Source of the DNA: Coptis chinensis
Taxonomy: Eukaryota > Streptophyta > Magnoliopsida > Ranunculales > Ranunculaceae
Length of the DNA stretch: 64,000 bases
Assembly (NCBI GenBank): GCA_015680905.1
Contig: CM027378.1
Location: forward strand, 106,289,501 to 106,353,500
Direction of reading: 5' to 3'
This document shows positions 41,261 to 62,545 of this stretch, one piece after another. The notes beneath the pieces were generated by a model. It was not told the DNA's origin. It did not search any database and saw only the letters and a list, made by a program, of their open reading frames with translations. The first letter of the stretch is position 1. Each line of letters opens with the position of its first letter. The translations under genes and the position numbers were made by a program.

Positions 41261-41379
41261 CCTAATAGATGTGATCACATCCATATGGGGTTGTCTCTTT
41301 TTGCTGAATTTTCAATTTTGCCGAAATTCGACCCAAAATTGGTTCGGCTCATATGGGTGTAGTTTTCATGGTCCGATAC

Positions 41380-41732
41380 TGTAGTGGTAGTATTGGGGGC
41401 CCAAAGTATCAAAGAGAGGATGCTCGAAGTTAACGAAAAGATAGCATGCCGCCATGACGTCTTTGGATCGGGCTAAGTCACGGGTCGCAAGACGAAACCC
41501 TACACGCGTAGAGAAGGAGACCTCGAGATGGAGGGACAGGTGGAGGGCCCGGATGAAGAAAGGAAAGGATATAAAGAGAAAGTGAAGGGAAGAAGAAGAG
41601 GAGGCAGCCATTAGAAGAGGAGAGGGAATAGTGTCTGAAGAGAGAAAAAATAGTGAGAGGAAAGAGATTGGAACTGTAACAAGTGTCCGAGAGCTAGGGG
41701 TTAGTTCTGGTAGTAGAAAAAGGGTTGTAACA
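41380..41732 (+). repeat. 5' LTR of the 41-51 kb gypsy element
   Basis: It pairs with 50387-50737. It contains a TATA-like GGATATAAAGAGAAAG near 41567 and ends TTGTAACA. Differences from the 3' LTR concentrate in its first 150 bp. Confidence 0.94.
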
Positions 41733-47673: not shown

Positions 47674-49858
47674 TTAAACATCTTCGTGGACCACTGACTC
47701 GGCGGCTTCCTCGAGGGCGGCATCCGCAGCAGCGTCTATCACCCCGGCCACTATGACAGCGGCATCATCGACCGCCGAAACAGATTCCGGAAGTGGCGCC
47801 GCCACCTCTGAAGGGGGGACCGCGGTCGGGGCTTCAGGGAGAAGTCGCCCTTCTTTGATAAGCCGCTCATGCTCCTCCTTAATCTTTTTGGCCACTCTCT
47901 TGTCGGCCCGGGCACGAAGTGATCCCGAGCTCATCCATGTCGGTGTCGTGCTGCTTATGGAGCGCCGCCATTTCAGCCTGGTGCTTCTCAGAGAGGCCGT
48001 ATGGCGGCAAGATATCGAGCGAAGAGGGTTTCCCGCTGATTACTCAAAGGTCATTAACCTTATCCATATAGGCGAGGTGGCGCCCTCGCCAGCCTTCAAC
48101 TCGTCCTGGGCCCTGAGCTTCTCTATGTCCGCAGCCTCATTCTTTTGCTCCAGGCGGGCAACGTCGCCGTCCAACTGGTCGATCCGGGCCCTTGCACCAA
48201 AAAGGTCGCGGATCATGTAAGAGATGTCCAAGCTCATCCGAAAAAGAAATAACGAGGTTAGGGCATTCAAAGGGGAAGGGAAAGGCACCCGCAAGACAAA
48301 GAGAGAGTACCTTCTCCTAGCCAGTGTAAAAGGAGGTCCGGTGAGAGTCGAACGTTCCCCATCAAAGATAGGCCATGTCCCCGGGGAGATGAGACCCATA
48401 GAACGTAGAGAGGAGGCCACGGCGTTGTCGAAGGCGAATCGCGAATGTTGAGAGTCGCGTTCAACCTTGAAGGTGGGGCAGAAAGTAATGGGCTCGCCCC
48501 CCCTCTTCGAGAAATGGGGCCACTTCCTTTCCTAGCGCCGCCAAAGACGCCGCGAGGGGAGCAGCGGGTTGGTCCGCTGGACCCGATGGGCGGGTCCTCT
48601 TCGGATGTAGAAGTCCATGCGGGACGCTTTGGAAGCCGGAGGAGGGGAGGATGGAGCGGCAGCTGTAGGGACGACAACGGAGACATCCTCATCATCCGAG
48701 TCGTTGTCGAAAAGCTTGCGCTTGTGGGCGCCCATGTCGGGATGAGGAGAAGAAGTGGAGAGCGAATGAGGGGAAGAGTATTGGTCTTCCCAAATGGTCA
48801 GGGACCGGTAAGGGTGTGGGTCAGCGGAATGAGGTGGGGAAGCGGAGGATGAATGAGGGGGACGGCGATTTGGTCGGTGGCGGGGGGAAGCTTTTTTGGT
48901 GTGGCTTTTCTTCTTTGGAGGGGGTGAATCCCGAGGCTTTCTCTCTTTGGGCGGGGGGGGCGGTAAAAAGGGGAACAATATTTTCCAATAAACTTCAGTT
49001 GGGGATTGGAGAGGAGGGGAGTGGCAGTGACGGGATCAATTCCGAAAATACCGCAGAGATTTGGGCCCCCCCCAGTGGAATCTTCCCCGAATGTGGTGGA
49101 AAAGAAATTATCGTAGGGCTCGCGACTTCGAACCCGGACGCCAACCCCGAAAAAGAAAACGCCAAGTCGGGAAGGGGAGCAAAGAAGACCTACACCAAGG
49201 GATTAGTAGAGAGGCGGAACTCACCGGGGAGAAAGGCCGGATGATTAAGGCTCAAGTCGGGAGGAAGATCCGGAGAGGAAGTTCCCGAGAGATGTAAAGG
49301 GGTAATGGTGCCACAACTTGTCCAAGAGGTGACACGGCAGTATAAAATGTTGCTTCCAGGTCGAACACGTAAAGAATGGTATCCCACGCCGACATCCTTG
49401 GTGCTCTTTTTATGTAAAATGAAAGCCATGTCATGGATCGTATTTTGGGACTTCTAACCGGTTGTGGTTGGTTCGCAACATACATAACCCTCCGTGAATT
49501 GCCGATGCCTTGGCAAGAAGGGATGTTGAAGTGATTGCATACCCGGCGTCAAGGCGGGGTGAGGGGCAACGGAGGCCGGCTACAATCCTGCCCCAATCGT
49601 GGCAACTAGACGGCCCCGGCTTATAGGGAACCGGATGAGGGTAGTAGGTTAGGGGCGGGGACATGCTCCAATATGACGTCACGGTATATGCCGTAAGCCG
49701 CTTTAATGTACTTCGAGATTAGGTCGGGCTAGGCGGGGGTGGGGGGAAGGAAGGGCAAAGGGCCAGAGAGGTGGAAGGAGCCCGATCCGGTCGTCGGGTA
49801 GGGGAGGCGACACCACGGATCGGGAGAAGGATGAGGTGTCGGATCCGGAGGCCGACAT
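47674..49858 (-). pseudogene. Antisense extra gene of the 41-51 kb gypsy element (broken)
   Basis: On the strand opposite to pol, a gene-like region starts MSASGSDTSSFSRS at 49858. It passes through WGRIVAGLRCPSPRLD, equivalent to GQIVAGLRFPLSLLDV in the related element, and ends in a coiled-coil and Ala-rich tail (KRVAKKIKEEHERLIKEG, then AAESVVHEDV) at 47674. It belongs to the Transposase_28/'putative gypsy type transposon' group. A TATA-like TTTTATAAAAG (50143-50155) lies about 290 bp upstream on the same strand. The region is broken several times. Its function is unknown. Confidence 0.7.
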
Positions 49859-50386
49859 CGAGGTCGGGGAAGAAGTTAAACGACAAGACCGGTTGGAGAG
49901 AGAAGAAGGCTGAATAGTCTCAAATTCAAGAGAGAAACACGAATATAGCAAATAATGGATTAAGGAGGAAAGGGGACCAACCCGAGGGAAGAGAGGAGCA
50001 ACAGAACAAAACCCTCCACAAAAAGAAAACAGAAGAAGAACAAGGCCATGGACCGAGCAGCTAAACGAGGGAAGAGTAGAAAAAGGGAGAGTAGTTAGGA
50101 GGAAAATGAAAGACCGAATGGAAGAAGGAAAGAATCGAAATGCTTTTATAAAAGGAAGCGGGCAAAAGAGTAATTGGAAGGGGCTGAAATCGAGGCGACA
50201 CTAAAAGGGATCAGTCAGGGATTGACGCGTGGATGCGCAAGAAACGAGGGGACGCAGGTTATAATTGCGATGGGACTCGTGAGGCCAGCGAGAAAAAAGA
50301 ACCTTGGGAACCGCGGAGGGAAACGTGACATCAGGGACTCTCGACTCCCCGATCACCAAATGGTCGCGGACTCGAGAGGGGGCATC

Positions 50387-50737
50387 TGTAGTGGTAGTAT
50401 TGGGGGCCCAAAGTATCAAAGAGAGGATGCGCCCGAGTTAACGAAAGATAGCATGCCGCGACGTACTGGATCGGGGCTAAGTCACGTGGTCGCAGTACGG
50501 AAACCCTACACGCGTAGAGAAGGAGACCGCGAGATGGAGGGACAGGTGGAGGGCCCGGATGAAGAAAGGAAGGATATAAAGAGAAAGTGAAGGGAAGAAG
50601 AAGAGGAGGCAGCCATCAGAAGAGGAGAGGGAATAGTGTCTGAAGAGAGAAAAAATAGTGAGAGGAAAGAGATTGGAACTGTTACAAGTGTCTGAGAGCT
50701 AGGGGTTAGTTCTGGTAGTAAAAAAAGGGTTGTAACA
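50387..50737 (+). repeat. 3' LTR of the 41-51 kb gypsy element
   Basis: It is preceded by the purine tract GAGAGGGGGCATC and ends TTGTAACA before the target duplication GATAC (50738-50742). Confidence 0.94.
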
Positions 50738-50742
50738 GATAC

Positions 50743-51667
50743 CCGATTTTCCTATTTCAGAAAATTCCGAAAAAAAATTGGATCGGATTCGGATATAACT
50801 CTAGAAACCGATCCGATCCGATAGTTCCGATATATAATCGATTTGAAATTTCTGATATTATTGGCAATTTATTCCGAAAATATGTACTTATAAACTAATA
50901 AATCTCCACTGTCCACTTGATTATATCTCGACCGTTCATTCATTTTCTAGTTTTTGTACTTCCAAAAACAAAACAAACAACATAACCTAACTCCTGACAT
51001 GTGAAGTCTTGGTTTGTAACATGTAAAAGCTAGCTCCTGACATATAAAGTCTTGGTTTGTAACATGTAAAAGTTTTTAACTCCTGATATATAAAGATTTT
51101 TAGCTCGTGACATGTATTAGGCTTTTGTTAGTTCCTTACATGTAAAGTCTTGTTTTTTTGAAGTTCTCCAAAGTGTTTTACTGCTATTGTATATTACTAT
51201 ATTTTGAAATTTAGTGATGTCAAATTTTCTTTTCTAAAAATAATTGAAAGTAAAGAGATCTGTGAAAATTTACCAAGTATTCTGAAATTTCCAAATTATT
51301 CCAAAATTTACGAATTTCCGAAATTGAAAATATATTTTGAATCTGAAAAAAAAATTGGATCAGATTTGGCTAGCATATTAGGTTTCAAAAAAATTCAGAA
51401 AAAGTTTCAGAGGTTAATCTTATCCGAAGTCACCCCTACATCCATCCACATATTTGGCAACTCACAGGTTATAGTAAAAAAGGAACTAAATTTCCATAAC
51501 AATAAGAACTGTAGAAACATAAAAATAAAACAAAATCGGAAACTAAGGAATATGTCATTAACCATCTCGTAGAAAGTCGATTACAAATAATACATTTCTC
51601 ATATATGTGCGTATATGTGCAAGACGGGGGCGGATCGCTATTCGGCTTGGTTACGCAAGATTCAATG
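50743..51667. other. AT-rich DNA with a short tandem repeat; possible Helitron-like body
   Basis: A unit of roughly 55 bp built on CTCCTGACAT(G/A)T(A/G)AAGTCTTGGTTTGTAACATG repeats two to four times with decay between about 50990 and 51155. No gene is recognised; the frame at 51204-51572 is AT-driven. It may be the body of the Helitron-like element ending at 51692. Confidence 0.45.
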
Positions 51668-51692
51668 CCGTGCGGCACGCGGCAAACACTAG
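51668..51692 (+). mobile_element. Helitron-like 3' terminus (plus strand)
   Basis: The GC-rich hairpin text CCGTGCGGCACGCGG (one bulged base) in an AT-rich setting is followed by a short spacer and CTAG (51689-51692) then T. This fits a Helitron 3' end. The 5' end was not found. Confidence 0.5.
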
Positions 51693-51758
51693 TTTTTCCA
51701 TAAGGAAGCCCGAAACAATTTTGTACTTTCGCTTTTTCACTTTCTCCCATTTTTCAGC

Positions 51759-51952
51759 TATGTAACATTTTCCGAAAATATGTTACAAACAATGAATTCC
51801 TTCTATTTGTAACATTTTAGATTTAAATGTTGCAAACCCAAAAAAAATTGGTAACAATTCACAAAGCAATGTTACAACCCAACAAAAATTTGGTAACATT
51901 TCAATGACAACTGTTGCAAGTCAACTAAAATTTGTAGCATTACACTATAAAA
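51759..51952. mobile_element. CACTA-like subterminal repeat array, inverted copy of 62381-62530
   Basis: TGTAACATTTT/ATGTTACAAA words recur, and the whole array reads as the reverse complement of the array beginning GTGTAATGCTACAAATTTTAG near 62392. Landmarks such as AAAATTTGTAGCATTACAC, TTGGTAACATTTC and ATGTTACAACCCAACAAAAA are shared. The two arrays bracket a LINE fragment. Confidence 0.6.
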
Positions 51953-51987
51953 TTATACAAAACAATATGATATACATATATCTATGC

Positions 51988-52183
51988 AGGTGGGGAAGCC
52001 CCGTGTTTCTAAAAGCGGAAGGCGATTGGGATTCAAGAATACTCACCGGTTCAATCTGGCTATCTTATGCAAGCTATTACGGAGAGTGTTGACAAAAAAT
52101 CTCTTTGGAGTGATCTTATGGAGGCAAAGTATCAAAAAATTATTACTCTGAATAATTTTGTGGATAAAAGCACTAATGCTTCT
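51988..52183 (+). pseudogene. LINE reverse-transcriptase fragment, left part
   Basis: In shifted frames this reads LGFKNTHRFNLAILCKLL and then KSLWSDLMEAKYQ and ITLNNFVDKSTNAS. That is the conserved segment after the RT domain in plant LINEs (compare GGLGFRKMRDINVAMLAKLPW in the 16-22 kb LINE). There is no poly-A or ORF start, so it is an internal fragment. It continues after the gypsy insertion at 62080. Confidence 0.75.
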
Positions 52184-52568
52184 TGTATCAGCCTAATATA
52201 TGACTACCAAGACGACTGGTGTGTCCTGGGCTGGGGCAACATAACGGTATAGTCCGCGAATAATTAGAAGGCCGCGGACTCTGTAAGTGCGAGAAGATCA
52301 GTGGAGGTATTATGAGTTGAGGGAGATGTTGGATAAGGAAAGAAAGAGCTGGAGCACAGTAGCCAAGACACGATCTCTGAGGAGACAGGTGGACGGTTCC
52401 AGGACGTGGGGGCATGTAAGGAGATCATGGAAACCGAAGAGCGGTTAGAGAAGATGGGAGCGGTTAAAGAAAGAGGCGGTTAGGAAGTATGAAAAAGATA
52501 GAGAAGAAAGAGAAGAAGGAGGAAAAAAGAGAGAGAGGAGTTTATAGGTTGTAATTTTGGACAACACA
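52184..52568 (+). repeat. 5' LTR of the 52-62 kb gypsy element
   Basis: 385 bp, the same length as its partner 61690-62074. Differences are concentrated in one stretch of about 70 bp in the middle. Confidence 0.95.
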
Positions 52569-52694
52569 TTTGGCGCCGTCTGTGGGGAACGAGAGGAAAG
52601 CATACGATCAAGTGAGTGCTAAGAAGAAGGTGTGAAGATGACAACCATAGCGAAGAAAACAAGAGGGAGACCCAAAAAGTGAGGGACCGAGAGG

Positions 52695-54137
52695 GTGATG
52701 ATGAAACCGTGGAGTGTGGAAATGGAGGAGATGGAGGAGTTGGAAGAGGAAGTTCCCGAGATTGCGGGGGAAGCAACCAGGCTGTTACAGGAAGAGATAG
52801 GAAGGTTGAGAAATGAGAATGAGAGTCTGAGGAAAGAAAGGGAATCCACACAGGAGGAGGAGATAAGGGAGCCAGAAAATAGTGAAGTAGAAGGCCAGCA
52901 TGAGGAAGTGCGTCATAAACCACCAGGCGATACGGGGGAAGGCATTACCATGGAGATGGTCCAAGCGATGATTGAGAAAGACAGAGAAATGAATCGGGTG
53001 GCGGAGAGGGAAAGTCAAGTGGTGGTGAAGAAGGTGGTGGCTGGACTCAATCAGAATCCGCTGGCCGATGCAGTCTAGAACGCCGAGGTGCCCAAGCGAT
53101 TCGCGCAACCAAGATTTGAGAGATATGACGGGAAGGGGGATCCTGCGGACCACTTGCACCATTTCAGACAACAAATGCCGTTGTGGCAAGAGGTTAAATA
53201 TGATGGGCTCCGTTGCATGATGTTTCCAGCCAGTTTGAAGGGTGGAGCATCAGACTGGTATTATAGGTTGGCATCGCGGAGTATAACCAAGTTCGAAGAG
53301 TTGGAGCAAGCATTTGTAGACCATTTTATCCATCAGAAACGAAGGGTAGTGGATATTGCGGATCTATTTAACGTCAAACAGAAGTCCGGAGAGACACTCA
53401 GGGAATTCTTGTGTAGATTCAAGGAGGAGACCTTAAGGGTAGAAAGTCTGGACGAGCACACCGCAGTCATTGCTTTCCAGCATGGACTGAAGCCGGGAAC
53501 CAGAGTCCACGAATCTGTATCCAAAATTGAGGTTACAACGTTGCATGCGTTGTATCCGAAAGTGGAGAAATACATCCGCTATGAGGACATGTTGCAGAGA
53601 AATGCTAAGGAGCCGAGGAAGTCAGAGAAGTCAATACAGAGTGTAGAACAGGAAGACCGAAAAGACAAAGGAAAGGCTGCGATAAGAGAAGGGGGAGCCT
53701 ATAGAGAGGCGGCCCGCAAACCGGAGAGAGGCAGAGATCAAGTTAGGAGGGAGATTCGCGAACGAAAACCATATCGCGACGTAGAGTCCACACCGTTGAA
53801 CAAACCACTGGACGAAATCTTGCCACTGATTAAAGGGATGCAGCATTATGAAGGTCCGCGAAGCATACCCAGGGAGATAGAAGATAAACCATTTTGTGCT
53901 TACCACCAGATCAGAAATCATACTACAAATGAGTGTTTCGCGCTGCGATGGTTGATAGAAAGAATGTTAGAGAAAGGATTGTTAAGGGAATTTGTCAAGG
54001 AGATACACCCAGTGGACAGAGCACCGGCCGTGGCCAGAATATTAGGAACAATCAATGTCATATATAGTGGGGAGACAATGGGGAGGAATGCACACAGAGA
54101 TAAGGTGCGGAGGACTGCCGAAATTACGGCCAGATAA
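52695..54137 (+). other. gag region of the 52-62 kb gypsy element (broken)
   Basis: Glu-rich coiled-coil N-terminus (EEMEELEEEVPE). The capsid core has RFERYDGKGDPADHLHHF, WYYRLASRSITKFEELEQ and FVDHFIHQKRRVVDIADL. A zinc-knuckle-like CAYHQIRNHTTNEC segment follows near 53895. Confidence 0.92.
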
Positions 54138-54239
54138 ATGAGGTTTCGTGTTGCTCGCGACCCGGTCCTGAGGAACGCACTAAGCGATGGAAGGATAGAG
54201 TTCACCCGGGGATCTCGAAGCGATATCTGCGCCTCACCG

Positions 54240-54714
54240 CGGATGCTTTGGTGATTACGGTAGCAAAGATGGGTAATTATATGGTGAAGAGGGTTTTGAT
54301 AGATTGTATGTTGATGGATTTGCTATTTAAAGGCGCGATGGAGAGATGTGCATCGAGCGAGGCGGATAAAGCCGCCAAGAACCAATTTGTTTGGTTTCAA
54401 TGGAAGCAGAACCGAGCCCATGGGGGAATTATTATTACCGATGAACGGCGGGACCGGTGACGGTATTCACTCGTTTCATGATAGTGGACGCCGCTTCACG
54501 CGATTATAATGCAATATTGGGGAGAAGATGGATCCACGAAATGAAAGCGATTCCATCCACATATTACCAGGTGATCCGCTTTCCGACTAATGGAGGAACG
54601 TATGAAATCAGAGGGGACCAGGTCGCCGCTCAAAATATTCACCAGGTGGTGGTTAAAGAATTGAGCCGCGCACCGGAGAAGGAAGTGGAGGGGGAAAGCG
54701 AGTCCCCAGCATAG
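54240..54714 (+). other. Protease region of the 52-62 kb gypsy element (broken)
   Basis: Text collinear with retropepsin: GNYMVKRVLIDC and NAILGRRWIHEMKAIPS, followed by the usual linker to RT. Confidence 0.82.
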
Positions 54715-54729
54715 CAATTACAGACTGCG

Positions 54730-56240
54730 ATGGCTAAGGGAGATGGGTCTGTGGGACAAAAGACCTTGGACGAGACTGTGACCGTGAATCTGGGTGAGGG
54801 GGAAGAGGAGAAACTGGTGTCTGTTGGGGCCGAGTGGCCAGAGAGTTGGAAGGCAAAGTTAGTTGAGATGTTAGCAGAGAACAGCGATGTTTTCGCGTGG
54901 TCGATTGAGGACTTGATTGGCTTGGACCCCGAGTTTGCGTGTCACAAGCTGCACATGAGAGAAGGGGCCAAACCCGTCCGACAAAAAATGAGAGGAATAA
55001 GACCGCAGTATGCAGAAGGGATAAGAGAGGAAGTGCGAAGATTGAGTGCCGCAGGAATCATCCGAGAGTGTCAGTTTACCGAATGGCTCTCAAACATCGT
55101 CGCGGTACCCAAGAAAAATGGGAAAGTAAGAATGTGTGTTGATTTTACTGATGTCAACCAAATTGCCGAAAAGATATTATCCTATGCCGATATAGGCGAA
55201 CTGGTGGACCGAATGGCCGAGTTCAAATTTTTCTCATTCATGGACGCATCCATGGGGTACAACCAAGTGGTAATGTATGGCCCAGACCAGGTGAAGACCG
55301 CGTTCATTGTCGAGGGAGGAATGTATTGTTACACCAGAATGCCTTTCGGACTAAAGAATGCAGGGGCAACTTTTCAAAGGATAGGGGAGAAGATGTTTGA
55401 ATGCAAAATCCGGAGGAGTATGGAAATATACATAGATGATATGGTAGAAGAGCATGACTGAGGAGGAACATCTGGGGGGATTGAAAGAAACCTTCGCGAT
55501 ATTGCGAAAATATAGGCTGAGGTTGAACCCTGAGAAGTGCACATTTGGGGTGACTTCTGGAAAGTTTCTGGGATATATTGTGACATACCGCGGAATAGAA
55601 GCTAACCCGGACCAGATCAGAGCGTTGGTAGAAATGCAATCGCCCCAAAATGTGAAGGAGGTTCAAATGCTTGCGGGAAGAATTGCGGCCCTCAACCGGT
55701 TCATTTCAAGTCGTCGGACAAGTGTGAACCGTTATCACCGGCTCTTGAGAAAAACATCTGACTTTCAGTGGTCCGAGGCATGTGAACAAGCTTTCCAAGA
55801 GTTGAAGATTTATTTGGGAAAAGCTCCTATTTTGTCGCGACCGGGGCAAGGGGAAAAGCTGTATTTGTACTTGGGGGTGTCAGAATATGCTATTAGTTCT
55901 GTGTTAATAAGGGTGGTGGATAAGGCAGAGAGGTCGGTGTATTTCCAGAGCAAAACAATGTTAGATCACGGGGGCCGGATCTGACAAAGTTGAGAAATTT
56001 GCATTGGCCTTGGTGTTTTCTGCGTTAAAATTGAAGCCTTACTTCGATGCTCATTCTGTGGTTGTGGTGACTAACTTGCCTCTCAAACAGGCGTTAAAGG
56101 CGGACAAATCAGGGAGAATGCTGAAATGGGTCGTGCTGTTGAGTGCATATGACATTGAATTCCAAATCCGGACAGCGGAAAAAGCACAAGCTATGGCAGA
56201 GTTTTTGGCAGAGTTCCCCGCCGAAGACCCAACTTGGGGG
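54730..56240 (+). other. Reverse transcriptase and first RNase H (broken)
   Basis: RT motifs are well kept: RLSAAGIIRECQFTEWLSNI, VRMCVDFTDVNQ, FFSFMDASMGYNQV, MPFGLKNAGATFQ and IYIDDMVEE. Then come the thumb and connection and the first RNase H (DFQWSEACEQAFQELK, ISSVLIRVVDKAERSVYF). The region has a few breaks. Confidence 0.93.
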
Positions 56241-56249
56241 GACAATATG

Positions 56250-56700
56250 ATCATGGAGCAGGAGGGAGAGACGAAGCAGGATGTGTTAGACCCATGGGAC
56301 ATGAGAAATGGATGGAGGGTATTCACAGATGGGTCCGCAACGGACACAGGAAACGGGATTGGAGTGGTGGTAGTCACCCCGGAGAATAATCGACTTGAAT
56401 TATCGATGAAGTTGGGCTTCGCGGCTTCAAGCAATGAATCTGAGTATGAAGCGGTGATAGCTGGGCTAGATTTGGCCATGGATCTTGGAGTGAAGGAGCT
56501 GACGGTATATTCCGATTCCAACTTGGTAATTTGTCAGATGAATGGAGAATTTGCCGCCCGATGCCCCAGGATGGCAAAGTACCTGGAGGTATTACAGAGG
56601 AAAGCGAGTGAGTTTGGCAAAATAAGGTTCGCGCATTTAGGACGCGGTGAAAATAGACATGCTGACGCATTGGCATATGTAGCCGCGGTGCTTCCTGGGT
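56250..56700 (+). other. Additional RNase H of the 52-62 kb gypsy element
   Basis: Complete-looking aRNase H: WRVFTDGSATDTGNGIG (first Asp), SNESEYEAVIAGLDLAMD (Glu), LTVYSDSNLVICQMNGE (Asp) and GENRHADALAYVA (final Asp). This supplies the full D-E-D-D set and places the element in the Tat lineage. Confidence 0.92.
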
Positions 56701-56739
56701 CTGAGGGCAGATCAATTGAAGTCAGGGTGCTAAGCAAGC

Positions 56740-58036
56740 CAAGTACCTCTGTGATTGCCGAGGTAGGAATGACCATGAAGGAAGAGCCAGGGTGGATAGA
56801 GCCCATAAAAAATTTCTTATTGGGGAGAGAAATTGATGATAGACAAGAGCGAAGGAGAATGGAGCAGGTGTCGCAAAGATACATTTTAATGGAAGGAGAC
56901 CTATACAGACGGAATGTCAGCGGACCGTTGTTGAGATGTTTAGCTTCGCGTCAGGCGAAAGAGATCTTAGCAGAAGTTCATGAGGGGGACTGTGGTAGCC
57001 ATTCGGCAGGAAGAACGACGGCGCATCGGGTGTTGTCCCAGGGGTATTTTTGGCCACACCTGAAGAGAGAAGCGACCGAATATGCTAAGAGGTGCGAGAA
57101 ATGCCAGAGATTTGCACCACTGATACATGCACCCGCTGAACCTTTGCACAAGGTATATAGTCCTTGGCCGTTCGCGATGTGGGGACTGGATATTGTAGGA
57201 CCGCTACCGATGGCCAGTGGTAAACGAAGGTATATGCTAGCAGCGACTGATTATTTTACCAAGTGGGTAGAGGGTGTGGCACTCCAACAGATCAAGGAGG
57301 AACAAGTGAAGAAATTCCTATGGGAAAATATAATATGCCGGTTCGGGTTGCCACACACCATAATTGCCGATAATGGAACCACGGTTTACGGGGAAGGTCG
57401 CGAGAATTCCTCCAGCGTTCAAAGGTAAAACAAGGATTCGCGGGCTCCTTATAACCCGGAAGGGAATGGGCAAGCGAGAATCCTCCAACAAGACAATCAT
57501 GGATAACCCTGAAGAAAAAAAAAAACCTGAGGACAAAAAGGGTTCATGGGCGGCCGAGTTAAATCATGTCTTTGTGGGCATACGAACTAACTACACATGA
57601 ACGTCCACTTTCGAAGTCGCCATTTGCCATGGCATATGGGGTAGAAGCGATGATTCAAAGAGAGATGGTGGCGGCCACAACCCGGACAAGAGCGGTGGAG
57701 GAGGGATCAATGATATGGTGCCCGACCGCGGATTTGAATCTCAGGGAGGAGAGGAGAGACACAGCCCGCATCCGATTGGAGGAATATCATAGAAGATTAC
57801 AAAGACAATATGCCAAGAGAGTGAGGCCTCGACAGTTTCAGGTGGGGGATCGCGTTTTACGGAGAGTGACACCGTCGACTAGAAAGGAGGTGGACGGAAA
57901 GTTAGGGCCTAACTGGGAGGGACCCTATACCGTGGCAGAAAAGGGGAGCGCTGGAACATATCGGCTGCAGACACTCCAGGGAAAGGATATCGCGAGGCCT
58001 TGGAACATCAGAATGTTAAAAAGTTTCCTTGAGTGA
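56740..58036 (+). other. Integrase region of the 52-62 kb gypsy element (broken)
   Basis: The zinc-binding part with the HHCC layout (AEVHEGDCGSHSAGR, then CEKCQRFA) is followed by the catalytic core (WGLDIVGPLP, AATDYFTKWVEG, IIADNG) and the C-terminal part (FQVGDRVLRRVTPSTRK, LGPNWEGPYTV) ending at 58036. No chromodomain. Confidence 0.92.
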
Positions 58037-58169
58037 CAACATGTAATGTGTGGGAATCAACGGCTGAGGTAGCCGCCTCTAGTAATGTAGCAACATTTTA
58101 TTATAATGTTTAGAGTATAAAATTTATCAATGAATAGAGTATCATTTTGCCTATCTGTTTGCTGCGTTG

Positions 58170-58520
58170 TTAATTGCAAGGGTGTAGAAAAATTGCCCAT
58201 GAATGAGGAGGTCCCACTTTAATCTGGGGCAAACCGAAGTTGCCTTCGTCTGGTTTCATGGCTGGGCCGAGATAGCCCGGGGGAGCCCTTCTTCGGACAA
58301 AGAGGTCCAAATCTGACTTGGGGGCAAATTGGTACCCCTCAATCGGAGCCCATCCGAGATAGCGGGTGGAGCCGCCCAGCGGACAAAAGAGGTCCAAATC
58401 TGACTTGGGGGCAAATTGAGCTGCTCTCAATCAGGAGCCCATCTGAGATAGTAGGGGGGGGGGGAGCCCTTCGCGGACAACGAGATTCGTATCCAACATG
58501 GGGGCAAACTGAGCTGCCCC
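58170..58520 (+). repeat. Short tandem repeat downstream of pol in the 52-62 kb gypsy element
   Basis: A unit of roughly 80-110 bp repeats about three times with decay, built on GACAAAGAGGTCCAAATCTG, ACTTGGGGGCAAATTG, then CCCATC(C/T)GAGATAG. Tandem repeats between pol and the 3' LTR are common in Tat-lineage elements. Confidence 0.75.
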
Positions 58521-58770
58521 GAAGGATCTTCATGTAACAAGAGTTTAAGTTAGGGCAATTGAAGCGAGTGGTGAAAACAGTGGTATAGTATGGTTCAAAC
58601 ACAGTGCCAGGAAATAAAAAGAAGAAACTACTGCGAACGGGTTGGTTAAAAGGAAAACATAAGTGTGAGCCCGCTAGGATCACCCAGAAATACGGGACAT
58701 AAAGTACATACAAAATGAGCGAGAACAAAATATGGATAGAGTAAGCGAACACAAAGAAACAGTCTCTAGT

Positions 58771-60989
58771 TTAATGTTCAGCAGCAGTGTCTGGTAAAGT
58801 GGGATTCCCAGCTATGTCTTTATGAGGAGAACCTTCAGAAATCACCACCACAGCGTCCTCAGCCGCGGATCCAGTGTTGATATCACCCCCAGGGGGCGGC
58901 GAAGAGGCCATTGAAGGACCAACCTCTGGAACGGGGGCCGAAGAGGGCGAGGGGAGGAGTCTCCCAGCAGCAGTGAGATCGTCGAGCTGGCGCTGCAATT
59001 CTCGGGCTATCTTCTTTTCAGCCAAAACCCGGAAACGATCTGACGCAACCTTCAGCGATTGCTCCAGTTTTGCTTGGGCCGCCGCCTCTTGGGCTGTCTT
59101 CTCGCCCTCCATCTTGGCACGCAGCTCGGACCGACAGTTGCTGATTGAAGGCCTCCTCCGCGTTCTGCTGAAGCTTATGGGATTTAAGAGCGGCGAGGCG
59201 AGCAGTATCGCGATCTTTCTCCAGAAGCTCATATCATGTTTTCCAGCCTTCGGGCCCATGTATTTCTTGTTTCACAGCCTCCAGAGTTTCCAGGGTACTG
59301 GTGAGACCGCGGATGACGTAGCCTACATCCAGGCTCAGCTGTACACAATGGAGACGTTAAGTGTCTTATCCACAAAAAATATCAAGATAATAGGGGACTA
59401 AGACATACCTTCTCCCAGCCCGTATAGATGGCAGCGCGGTGGGCAGCGAAGGTCCCAGAGTCGCCATAGGCTTGGTCACGAGGTAGATGGGGGCTGAAGA
59501 ATGAGTGGGCGGCGGCTGCGGCGTTATCAGATTGAAGTCGCGGGTGGTGATCGCCCGATCCCTAGCTTTTTGATTCAGGCCAAACCTCCGGGGGCGGCGA
59601 GGGCGACTTCCTTGCCTGGACGACGAGTGATAGATGAGGGCCGCGGCAATACTGGTATAGGAGCACAGGGGGCAGAGGAGTTTCCCGCCGTTATGCTTCG
59701 CTTGGCTTAATTTGGCGGGCTCTTGGCTGCAGAATCAGATTCGCCATCTTCTTCGTCACTGTCCCATAATTTCAACTTGGTGGCGTCCATAGCTGGGGCG
59801 GTGGGGGAAGTAGGACCAGCAGCTTGAAAATCGTCCTCCCAATCAGCGATGGAGGAGTAAGGGGCCGGGGCACTGGGGGTTCTGGTTGGAAAGGTTCCAG
59901 AGGGGCGTTGAGGTTGTTGAGCAACCGCAGCCCGTTTTGCAGCAGCCTTGGAATGGGAAATCTTCTTGGTATATCCCCTCTTCTTGAATTTGGGGAAAGC
60001 TTTGGGCAACCTTTCTTTGGGAGGAGGTAGACGGTAGAATGGGCCTTGATACTTGCCGAAGTCTTTGAGAGGCGGGTCCGAGGAAGAGGAGGAGTGCCTT
60101 TCTCCGGATCGATGCCTAGAACTTCACACGATCCTTTGCCCGGTCGCGCGAGACTGGAAGATGGCGGAATTGACACCGAGATATAGCTGGGAGTGTGAGT
60201 CTGGTCTCCAACCTGTGCCCATGCAAAGAACATTGGGGTGAGCGATGGGAATACATGAAAAGAAAACATAGGCGGGCGGTCTATACTTACCGCTCGAGAG
60301 GAAATGTAAATGTCTCAGAGATACTTCAGTGGGAAGGTCAGTGGATAGGAAGCTCCCGGACACATACAACGGATAGTGGTGCCACACTTTGTCGGAAGAG
60401 GTGATGTTGAGAACAAAGGACTTCTTTTGCGGACGACTACAGAAGGATTGGTAGCCTATACTACCGAATTTGGTACTCTTCTTTAGGTAATAGTGGGAGA
60501 TCATGTCGCGGAGTTGGATGGGTGGGGAGTTGGTTTTGTTATAGAAATTAGCGGCGTACATAACACGCCAGAAGTTTCCAATACCCTGACACGGGGGGGG
60601 ATATTGAAATGGTTGCAAACTTCTACATCTAACAGGGACAGAGGAAACCGAAGACCGGCCACGATTTGTCCTACAGTAGCGACAAGAGCGCCTGGCCGAG
60701 GTGTGACCAAATGTGGGAAGTGGGTAACCCCGGGCACATGCTCCAAAATCACATCGTCTGGGATACCATAAGCCGCCTTGATCGCAGCCAAGTTAGGTCG
60801 GCGGTAGTGTGAAGGGGGCGGAGGGAGCTTGAACGATCTCCCAGACGTGGAAGGGATAGCGATGGGGGAGTCTGAATCTGAGGCCGCGGACTCCGATCTC
60901 ACTACAATAGGGCTACTGGATCTGGAGGAAGGAGAACTAGATCTAACGGATTTGGCGGCGGAGGTGCTTGCCGACTCAGAAGCCGACAT
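58771..60989 (-). CDS. Antisense extra gene in the 52-62 kb gypsy element, intron-like signals, unknown function
   Basis: On the strand opposite to pol. It starts MSASESASTSAAKSVRSSSP (ATG at 60989) with a Ser-rich N-terminus. A conserved block follows (AAYGIPDDVILEHVPG, VGQIVAGLRFPLSLLDVEVC), then NFWRVMYAANFYNK, KKSFVLNITSSDKVWHHYPL, a Pro-rich middle and a coiled-coil tail (KLEQSLKVASDRFRVLAEKK) ending DTAAEH at 58771. The conserved block is of the Transposase_28 ('putative gypsy type transposon') kind. Candidate introns with good GT-AG ends lie at about 60213-60290 and 59339-59408. Such antisense genes are reported from Tat-lineage elements; their role is unknown. The region has some breaks. 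Whether it is expressed cannot be told from sequence. Confidence 0.72.
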
Positions 60990-61689: not shown

Positions 61690-62074
61690 TGTATCAGCCT
61701 AATATATGACTACCAAGACGACTGGTGTGTCCTGGGCTGGGGCAACATAACGGTATAGTCCGCGAATAATTAGAAGGCCGCAGACTCTGTAAGTGCGAGA
61801 AGATCAGTGGAGGTATTATGAGTTGAGGGAGATGTTGGATAAGGAAAGAAAGAGGAGCCGAAGATGCCAAGACCACGATCTCGAGGAGGCAGTGGGCCGG
61901 TTCGGGGCGATGGGGGGGCATGTAAGGAGATCATGGAAACCGAAGAGCGGTTAGAGAAGATGGGAGCGGTTAAAGAAAGAGGCGGTTAGGAAGTATGAAA
62001 AAGAGAGAGAAGAAAGAGAAGAAGGAGGAAAAAAGAGAGAGAGGAGTTTATAGGTTGTAATTTTGGACAACACA
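61690..62074 (+). repeat. 3' LTR of the 52-62 kb gypsy element
   Basis: 385 bp, preceded by the purine tract GAGAGGGGGCATC and followed by the target duplication CTTCT (62075-62079). Confidence 0.95.
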
Positions 62075-62079
62075 CTTCT

Positions 62080-62232: not shown

Positions 62233-62545
62233 CACTACAACAATTATGGGCTTTTGTAACATGCCTTTTGCAATATTTTGTGGGGAACGTTATGCAAATA
62301 AAATATTTGTAACATTTTTTCTATAAAATGTTATTGAGTATAATATATCACATGTTTTTGTGTCATTGTATAGTGTAATGCTACAAATTTTAGTTGACTT
62401 GCAATATTTGTCTGTGAAATGTTACCAAATTTTTGTTGGGTTGTAACATTTTTTTTTTAAATGTTACCAAGTTCAATTTGTAGGGCTTGCAACATTTTCA
62501 CTTAAAATGTTACAAATAACAAGTAGGTATTGTTTGTCACATAAA
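62233..62545. mobile_element. CACTA-like terminal/subterminal array
   Basis: It begins CACTACAACAATTATGGGC and contains repeated TGTAACATTT/ATGTTACAAA words. From about 62381 on it is the inverted counterpart of 51759-51952. An internal TATAGTG at about 62389-62395 could be a second, oppositely facing end. Confidence 0.55.

Follow-up and report, generated by a model that had tools for sequence, protein, structure and literature searches.

The 64,000-nucleotide (nt) stretch of the Coptis chinensis genome analysed here (contig CM027378.1, hereafter the window) holds two long terminal repeat (LTR) retrotransposons, element A at about 41.4-50.7 kb and element B at about 52.2-62.1 kb, each carrying a gene on the strand opposite to gag-pol, between pol and the 3' LTR. 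An initial annotation had described in both elements a long region antisense to pol that starts with MSAS, and a homologous antisense gene with this start was confirmed in A and B. Our analyses indicate that it is very probably a gene of three exons and two spliceosomal introns, spliced from an antisense transcript and kept by virtue of its strand in both elements. Its features, read on the minus strand, are listed below.

58771-60989, minus strand: antisense gene of element B, from ATG (MSAS) to stop, broken in the window copy (40-row alignment)
60291-60989, minus strand: B exon 1, with TRP28-type relatedness over about 60470-60700 (alignment, tblastn)
60213-60290, minus strand: B intron 1, 78 nt, GTAAGT...GCACAG, phase 1 (alignment)
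59409-60212, minus strand: B exon 2, lysine-rich at about 59932-60018, a possible nuclear localisation signal by eye (alignment)
59339-59408, minus strand: B intron 2, 70 nt (a length indivisible by three), GTATGT...GTACAG, phase 0 (alignment)
58771-59338, minus strand: B exon 3, the long-helix (coiled-coil-like) C-terminal part (alignment, structure prediction)
47674-49858, minus strand: antisense gene of element A, from the MSAS start to stop, broken in the window copy (sequence, alignment)
49146-49224, minus strand: A intron 1, GTGAGT donor present, acceptor AG lost in the window copy, end approximate (alignment)
48238-48310, minus strand: A intron 2, GTACTC donor, acceptor AG lost in the window copy (alignment)
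50143-50153, minus strand: TATA-like TTTTATAAAAG, about 290 nt upstream of the start of the A gene (sequence)

Copies of the two antisense regions were sought in the 936-Mb genome, and the best 40 scored matches for each region were considered, from 188 and 859 first-look candidates, so that the true copy numbers may be higher. The resulting B alignment comprised 40 rows, namely the window copy and 39 fetched copies that were 68-91% identical to it over their longest BLAST piece. The window B copy has stops in every frame of each exon, while the window A copy shows GG instead of AG at both acceptors; since both are broken, the reading frame is known from the other genomic copies and not from the window alone. 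The two candidate introns first proposed for B (60290-60213, 78 nt, and 59408-59339, 70 nt) were read with the same limits and the same GT-AG ends. Exon 1 measures 697 nt in many B copies, exon 2 about 800 nt and exon 3 about 564 nt; exon 1 ends with HFLSS and one further base, exon 2 ends with TGWEK in phase 0 and exon 3 opens with LSLDVGYVIRGL. One of the 40 B rows is open through all exons (697, 803 and 561 nt), with no stop in frame 0 of exon 1 or in frame 2 of exon 2, and none in exon 3 before the terminal one. These three exons join in one frame only, with phases 1 and 0, and both introns must therefore be out. Intron 2, 70 nt long in most B copies, shifts the frame if retained.

Conservation of the splice signals in other copies had been set beforehand as a test of the candidate introns, and donors, acceptors and phases were mostly kept while the interiors had diverged. 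Rows without alignment at the site were left out (2 of 40 for intron 1 and 3 of 40 for intron 2). The intron 1 donor was GTAAGT in 35 and GT in 36 of the 38 B copies, the intron 2 donor was GT in all 37 alignable copies, and both GT-AG ends occurred in 32/38 copies at intron 1 and in 28/37 at intron 2. The B copies form an old and a young subfamily; counted by eye, GT-AG was found at each intron in 14 of 15 old copies, and among 18 young copies in 14 at intron 1 and in 11 at intron 2. The old copies carry an intron 1 of 75 nt in 12/15 cases, with an in-frame stop in 13/15. Donors were ranked, with an approximate donor matrix, among the GT columns that at least 80% of 33 B copies retain: on the gene strand the positions 59408 (score 5.74) and 60290 (4.58) ranked as the top two of 57, the next one scoring 1.78, and on the element-sense strand the best of 60 conserved GT columns scored 3.25 with the same approximate matrix. 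In five copies inspected the introns were T-rich (0.31-0.46), the value for the first two exons of the window copy being 0.23. A CTAAC word lies 22-29 nt before the acceptor in two of five copies, and CTCAC lies 30 nt before the intron 1 acceptor in two others; no CTAAC/CTCAC-like word was found for intron 2 in two of the five copies inspected. Both intervals have GT-AG ends, a conserved phase, an unconserved interior and a plausible length, as spliceosomal introns do.

A separate pattern was noticed in the young B copies (for example L045, L014, L015, L016 and L024, over 61051-58700), where changes other than C-to-T and G-to-A cluster near CAG/CTG words. The rate of such substitutions near these words and elsewhere was 0.072 and 0.032 in the young copies, and 0.027 at both in the old ones. 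These changes, which fall on the intron 2 acceptor and on exon 2, may be assembly errors at CHG-methylated sites and not real decay.

The same exon-intron arrangement was found in family A, for which 12 copies were fetched besides the window copy, from the best 40 matches. Intron 1 begins with GTGAGT in 12/12 fetched copies and ends with AG in 10/12, while intron 2 begins with GTACTC in 10/10 alignable copies and ends with AG in 9/10. The introns of A and B share sites, phases and flanking codons, and their interiors are quite different.

More distant relatives were recovered by a PF04195 profile search of the genome, which returned 17 places above the cut-off when the best 150 of 1296 candidates were scored. 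In a tblastn comparison, B exon-1 proteins matched 14 of the 17 at E<=0.01, with a best value of 3.5e-15 in this small set; exon 1 is thus related in sequence to loci hit by PF04195, and does not itself reach the Pfam cut-off. No PF04195 match was obtained in ten antisense pieces of the window at E<=1, the window copies being frame-broken and the family diverged. In the protein alignment the exon of the distant loci ends at about the same place as exon 1, and by eye an intron-size GT-AG interval follows the corresponding stretch, past the phase-1 base, in L049, L053, L060 and L064. Within an eight-locus PF04195-hit family, the donor GT was counted by eye in 6/8 and the acceptor AG in 5/8. The site and phase of intron 1 are common to A, B and several distant loci, with an identity of only about 25-45% between the matching proteins. 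Among the other loci, L062 carries an insertion and L056 is without a clear intron. A weakly related PF04195-hit family (L048, L054 and L058) has an intron-rich look, with about three GT-AG-like intervals after the domain.

The coding nature of the exons was evaluated from the divergence between the 18 young and 15 old B copies; the remaining 7 of the 40 rows, being truncated or interrupted, were left out. At codon positions 1, 2 and 3, divergence was 0.143, 0.093 and 0.327 in exon 1, 0.198, 0.185 and 0.389 in exon 2, and 0.214, 0.203 and 0.470 in exon 3. The interiors of introns 1 and 2 diverged by 0.334 and 0.327 respectively, with values of 0.019 and 0.202 for the first six bases, 0.092 and 0.374 for the last five, 0.028 and 0.000 for the GT, and 0.141 and 0.248 for the AG. 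Fixed differences numbered 39/641, 31/657 and 133/560 at codon positions 1 to 3 and 25/129 in the introns; treating columns as independent, the bias among codon positions gave a chi-square P=2.8e-30, and the introns did not differ from third positions (P=0.34). This constraint on the first two codon positions speaks for selection at the protein level. Near 60000, a C-run in exon 2, from PPPKERLPKA to RRGYTKK, seems to be length-variable, with frame changes there in several B copies.

Retrotransposons copy themselves via RNA, and introns are thus expected to be lost. The initial annotation had proposed that introns of this gene are not removed in retrotransposition and can persist, because the genomic RNA is made from the other strand; genomic copies are then predicted to keep them. 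Junctions were searched in the genome with short patterns allowing up to 3 mismatches, a search that is blind to more diverged copies and whose repeat counts are lower bounds. Intron-bearing junctions were found at 38, 47 and 63 places for B intron 1, A intron 1 and A intron 2, respectively, whereas this search returned no joined-exon junction for any of the three. The joined-exon pattern of B intron 2 occurred at only 15 places, all with 3 mismatches, where the CAG or AAG before the exon 3 start reads like the end of an intron and not like a joined exon. Retrocopies of a spliced antisense messenger RNA (mRNA), sought as direct proof, were not found by the pattern search. Within the reach of these patterns, genomic copies keep their introns, as the strand argument predicts, and the proposal is thereby supported. 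Among the intron-bearing places of A intron 2 with 3 mismatches, the exon 2 end is followed by GTACCCTTTCC in eight and by GTACCCTCTCT in three, which suggests further subfamilies with intron 2 at the same site.

As for the product, the coiled-coil ending described at first was recovered in a fetched B copy, whose exon 3 was predicted as one long helix (residues 29-122) with block values of the predicted local distance difference test (pLDDT) of 95-98 over residues 41-120. The AlphaFold model of exon 1 was weak (mean pLDDT 60.5) and gave no PDB match at E<=0.001, and for these reasons no function is claimed from the fold.

Upstream of the gene, a TATA box was found 285-300 nt before the start in three A copies, namely the window copy, L065 and L066, with TATAAAAA at the corresponding place in both of the other copies that reach that far (L065 and L066). 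No TATAAA occurs at the aligned place in the B copies, except in L024. The TATA-like sequence noted earlier upstream of the A gene is thus present on the minus strand, but it is specific to family A, and a TATA promoter common to both families was rejected. The presence of the box in A and not in B indicates that the promoters differ between the families.

Several observations weigh against a gene of this kind. Most copies, including both window copies, have broken frames, and the open exon-1 protein has no Pfam match even at E 10. In 34 of 35 B copies neither TATAAA, TATATA nor TATAAG lies within 400 nt of the start. At least one end of intron 1 is missing in 6/38 copies and the intron 2 acceptor AG in 9/37, mostly young copies in both cases; among the young copies this AG differs by 0.395, compared with 0.088 for the interior, a value that selection on the site leaves unexplained. 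Gap runs divisible by three amount to only 3/13, 18/58 and 17/34 in exons 1-3, with 0/31 and 0/4 in the two introns, so that the gap pattern supports coding weakly at best. Finally, intron 1 is 78 nt long and open in frame in most young copies.

The last point raises the alternative that young copies can retain intron 1, as an optional intron or as coding sequence, and that only intron 2 is obligatory. A length that is a multiple of three, without a stop, means that retention of intron 1 leaves the protein unbroken there; however, the interior diverges by 0.334 between subfamilies against 0.019 at the first six bases, and family A and the distant loci have an intron of the same site and phase with other interiors, so we regard this alternative as unlikely. 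The many frameshifts among the copies and the variable C-run of exon 2 could instead suggest that the antisense open reading frame (ORF) is real and coding but that decay or programmed frameshifting, and no intron, separates its frames. Against this stand the first and second rank of the two donors among 57 conserved GT columns, the recurrence of donors, acceptors and phases in family A despite quite different interiors, and the in-frame stop inside intron 1 in 13 of the 15 old copies, which make such an explanation very improbable.

It has also to be considered that the antisense transcription yields a regulatory RNA, as a trigger of double-stranded or small interfering RNA, and that the protein no longer matters. 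Such a role has been raised for antisense ORFs of plant LTR elements (PMC7264820), and the broken state of most copies would agree with it; the constraint at codon positions 1 and 2 between subfamilies argues otherwise and renders this explanation decidedly unlikely, while an added RNA role is still compatible with a protein-coding gene. The coding signal might finally be the mirror of a sense-strand ORF, as a long sense frame lies opposite exon 3 in the window copy (58826-59401). Among 33 copies, however, stop-free frames on the gene strand were found in 8 for exon 1, 3 for exon 2 and 10 for exon 3, and on the element-sense strand in none for any whole exon; coding on the sense strand was rejected on this basis, and the mirror explanation has hardly any likelihood left.

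Returning to a spliced antisense gene, we propose that a host polymerase II transcript would start between the 3' LTR and the gene and run antisense to gag-pol. Intron 1 (about 75-78 nt, phase 1) and intron 2 (mostly 70-77 nt, phase 0) would be spliced from this transcript to give a product of about 690 residues, serine-rich at its N-terminus, followed by a TRP28-related domain and a basic region and ending in a coiled coil. Such a protein would most likely be a nuclear, nucleic-acid-associated regulator. The genomic RNA would read CT...AC at the introns and stay unspliced, and the introns would pass into complementary DNA and new copies.

The wider organisation of the two elements is given by the following features.

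52184-52571, plus strand: element B 5' LTR, matched core, 94.1% identical to the 3' LTR over 392 columns
61690-62077, plus strand: element B 3' LTR, matched core, paired with the B 5' LTR
41379-41732, plus strand: element A 5' LTR, matched core, 93.9% identical to the 3' LTR over 358 columns
50386-50737, plus strand: element A 3' LTR, matched core, paired with the A 5' LTR
53079-54137, plus strand: B gag (PF03732, E=5.6e-14)
54715-55461, plus strand: B reverse transcriptase (PF00078, E=1.1e-12)
55965-57428, plus strand: B RNase H end, second RNase H (PF13456), integrase zinc and core domains (Pfam)
58267-58517, no strand assigned: tandem repeat with about 90-nt spacing, between pol and the antisense stop of B (sequence comparison)

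At a rate of 1.3e-8 per site per year, the LTR identities place both insertions at roughly 1-2 million years. Element B shows the order gag, reverse transcriptase, RNase H end, second RNase H, integrase; within 55965-57428 the Pfam domains cover residues 9-62 (RT_RNaseH end), 122-237 (RVT_3), 330-384 (Integrase_H2C2) and 402-474 (rve), with RT_RNaseH (24.0 bits) and rve (30.7) slightly below the Pfam cut-offs and RVT_3 and Integrase_H2C2 above them. The definition of the Tat clade used here is a second RNase H (aRH) between RNase H and integrase, and the same survey gives an arrangement like that of B for Ogre and Retand elements (PMC6317226). The RVT_3 domain probably represents the aRH, and element B then has the Tat arrangement. 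Two pieces of element A were scanned, one of which gave only RT_RNaseH domains and the other no match. Both A and B carry an extra antisense ORF between pol and the 3' LTR, as Retand-type elements do, and the best explanation includes their being related Tat/Retand-type Ty3-gypsy retrotransposons. Tandem repeats like that of B are known from the literature in many Retand elements. Inverted repeat arms of 130 nt (51845-51974 and 62344-62473, 88% complementary) lie on both sides of B, which may thus be nested inside another element.

The sharing of intron 1 with distant loci leads us to a further, tentative suggestion, to which we give somewhat less than an even chance. Intron 1 would be ancestral across the TRP28-type group, the gene would have entered the element as a piece of genomic DNA in antisense orientation with its introns included, and nothing but its strand would have preserved these in an RNA-copied element for the life of the lineage. 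Splicing could also act as a strand licence; if so, it would mark the antisense RNA as exportable mRNA, apart from the genomic RNA and from the double-stranded RNA that feeds silencing.

Plant LTR elements are generally without introns, Ogre and EVADE being exceptions (PMC12786077), and the literature searched, by titles and starts of abstracts, contained no work on introns of the antisense ORFs of plants, whether TRP28 or gene23, a scope that does not establish their absence from print; the available text of a sunflower paper (PMC11728184) had no bearing on antisense introns. Introns kept by an opposite-strand position would explain how a retroelement comes to possess a gene that is host-like and spliced in the normal way. 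A review of antisense genes has asked for antisense and spliced transcripts to be looked for (PMC7264820), and the sites named here make this a simple test. Surveys of antisense ORFs that are blind to introns may split these proteins into pieces, and the intron position is a possible character for tracing the origin of the antisense gene.

A basic region and a coiled coil make up HBZ, the antisense product of human T-cell leukaemia virus type 1 (HTLV-1). Like the gene proposed here, HBZ is an antisense gene of an LTR element with a spliced transcript; the protein is an inhibitor of transcription that depends on Tax and c-Jun. Transcription of HBZ begins within the 3' LTR, whereas here the coding start is internal, and no homology is claimed (PMC1459196). 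A like position is taken by the TRP28 (Transposase_28, PF04195) ORFs, which are characteristic of Retand elements and occur in 97% of Retand clusters (Vicient 2025, PMC11963269). They too run opposite to gag-pol and occupy the interval from pol to the 3' LTR, some encode Smc-type domains, and the exon 1 found here is related in sequence to loci hit by PF04195. They differ in being described as ORFs, the word "intron" occurring 0 times in the available text of that survey (PMC11963269), and the exon-1 protein of this work has no Pfam match. Compared by description only, gene23 of the maize element Grande also lies antisense just ahead of a 3' LTR, has a promoter of its own and encodes a nuclear protein, and again "intron" appears 0 times in the available text of the review (PMC7264820). 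Ogre likewise has a spliceosomal intron in a Tat-clade plant retrotransposon, but on the sense strand, unlike the opposite-strand introns of A and B (PMC6317226, PMC12786077). Antisense TRP28 ORFs in plants and a spliced antisense gene in the LTR element HTLV-1 are therefore already known; what appears new, within the literature searched and as predicted from genomic copies, is a conserved pair of introns in a plant antisense gene, with fixed sites and phases and with one site that reaches distant families.

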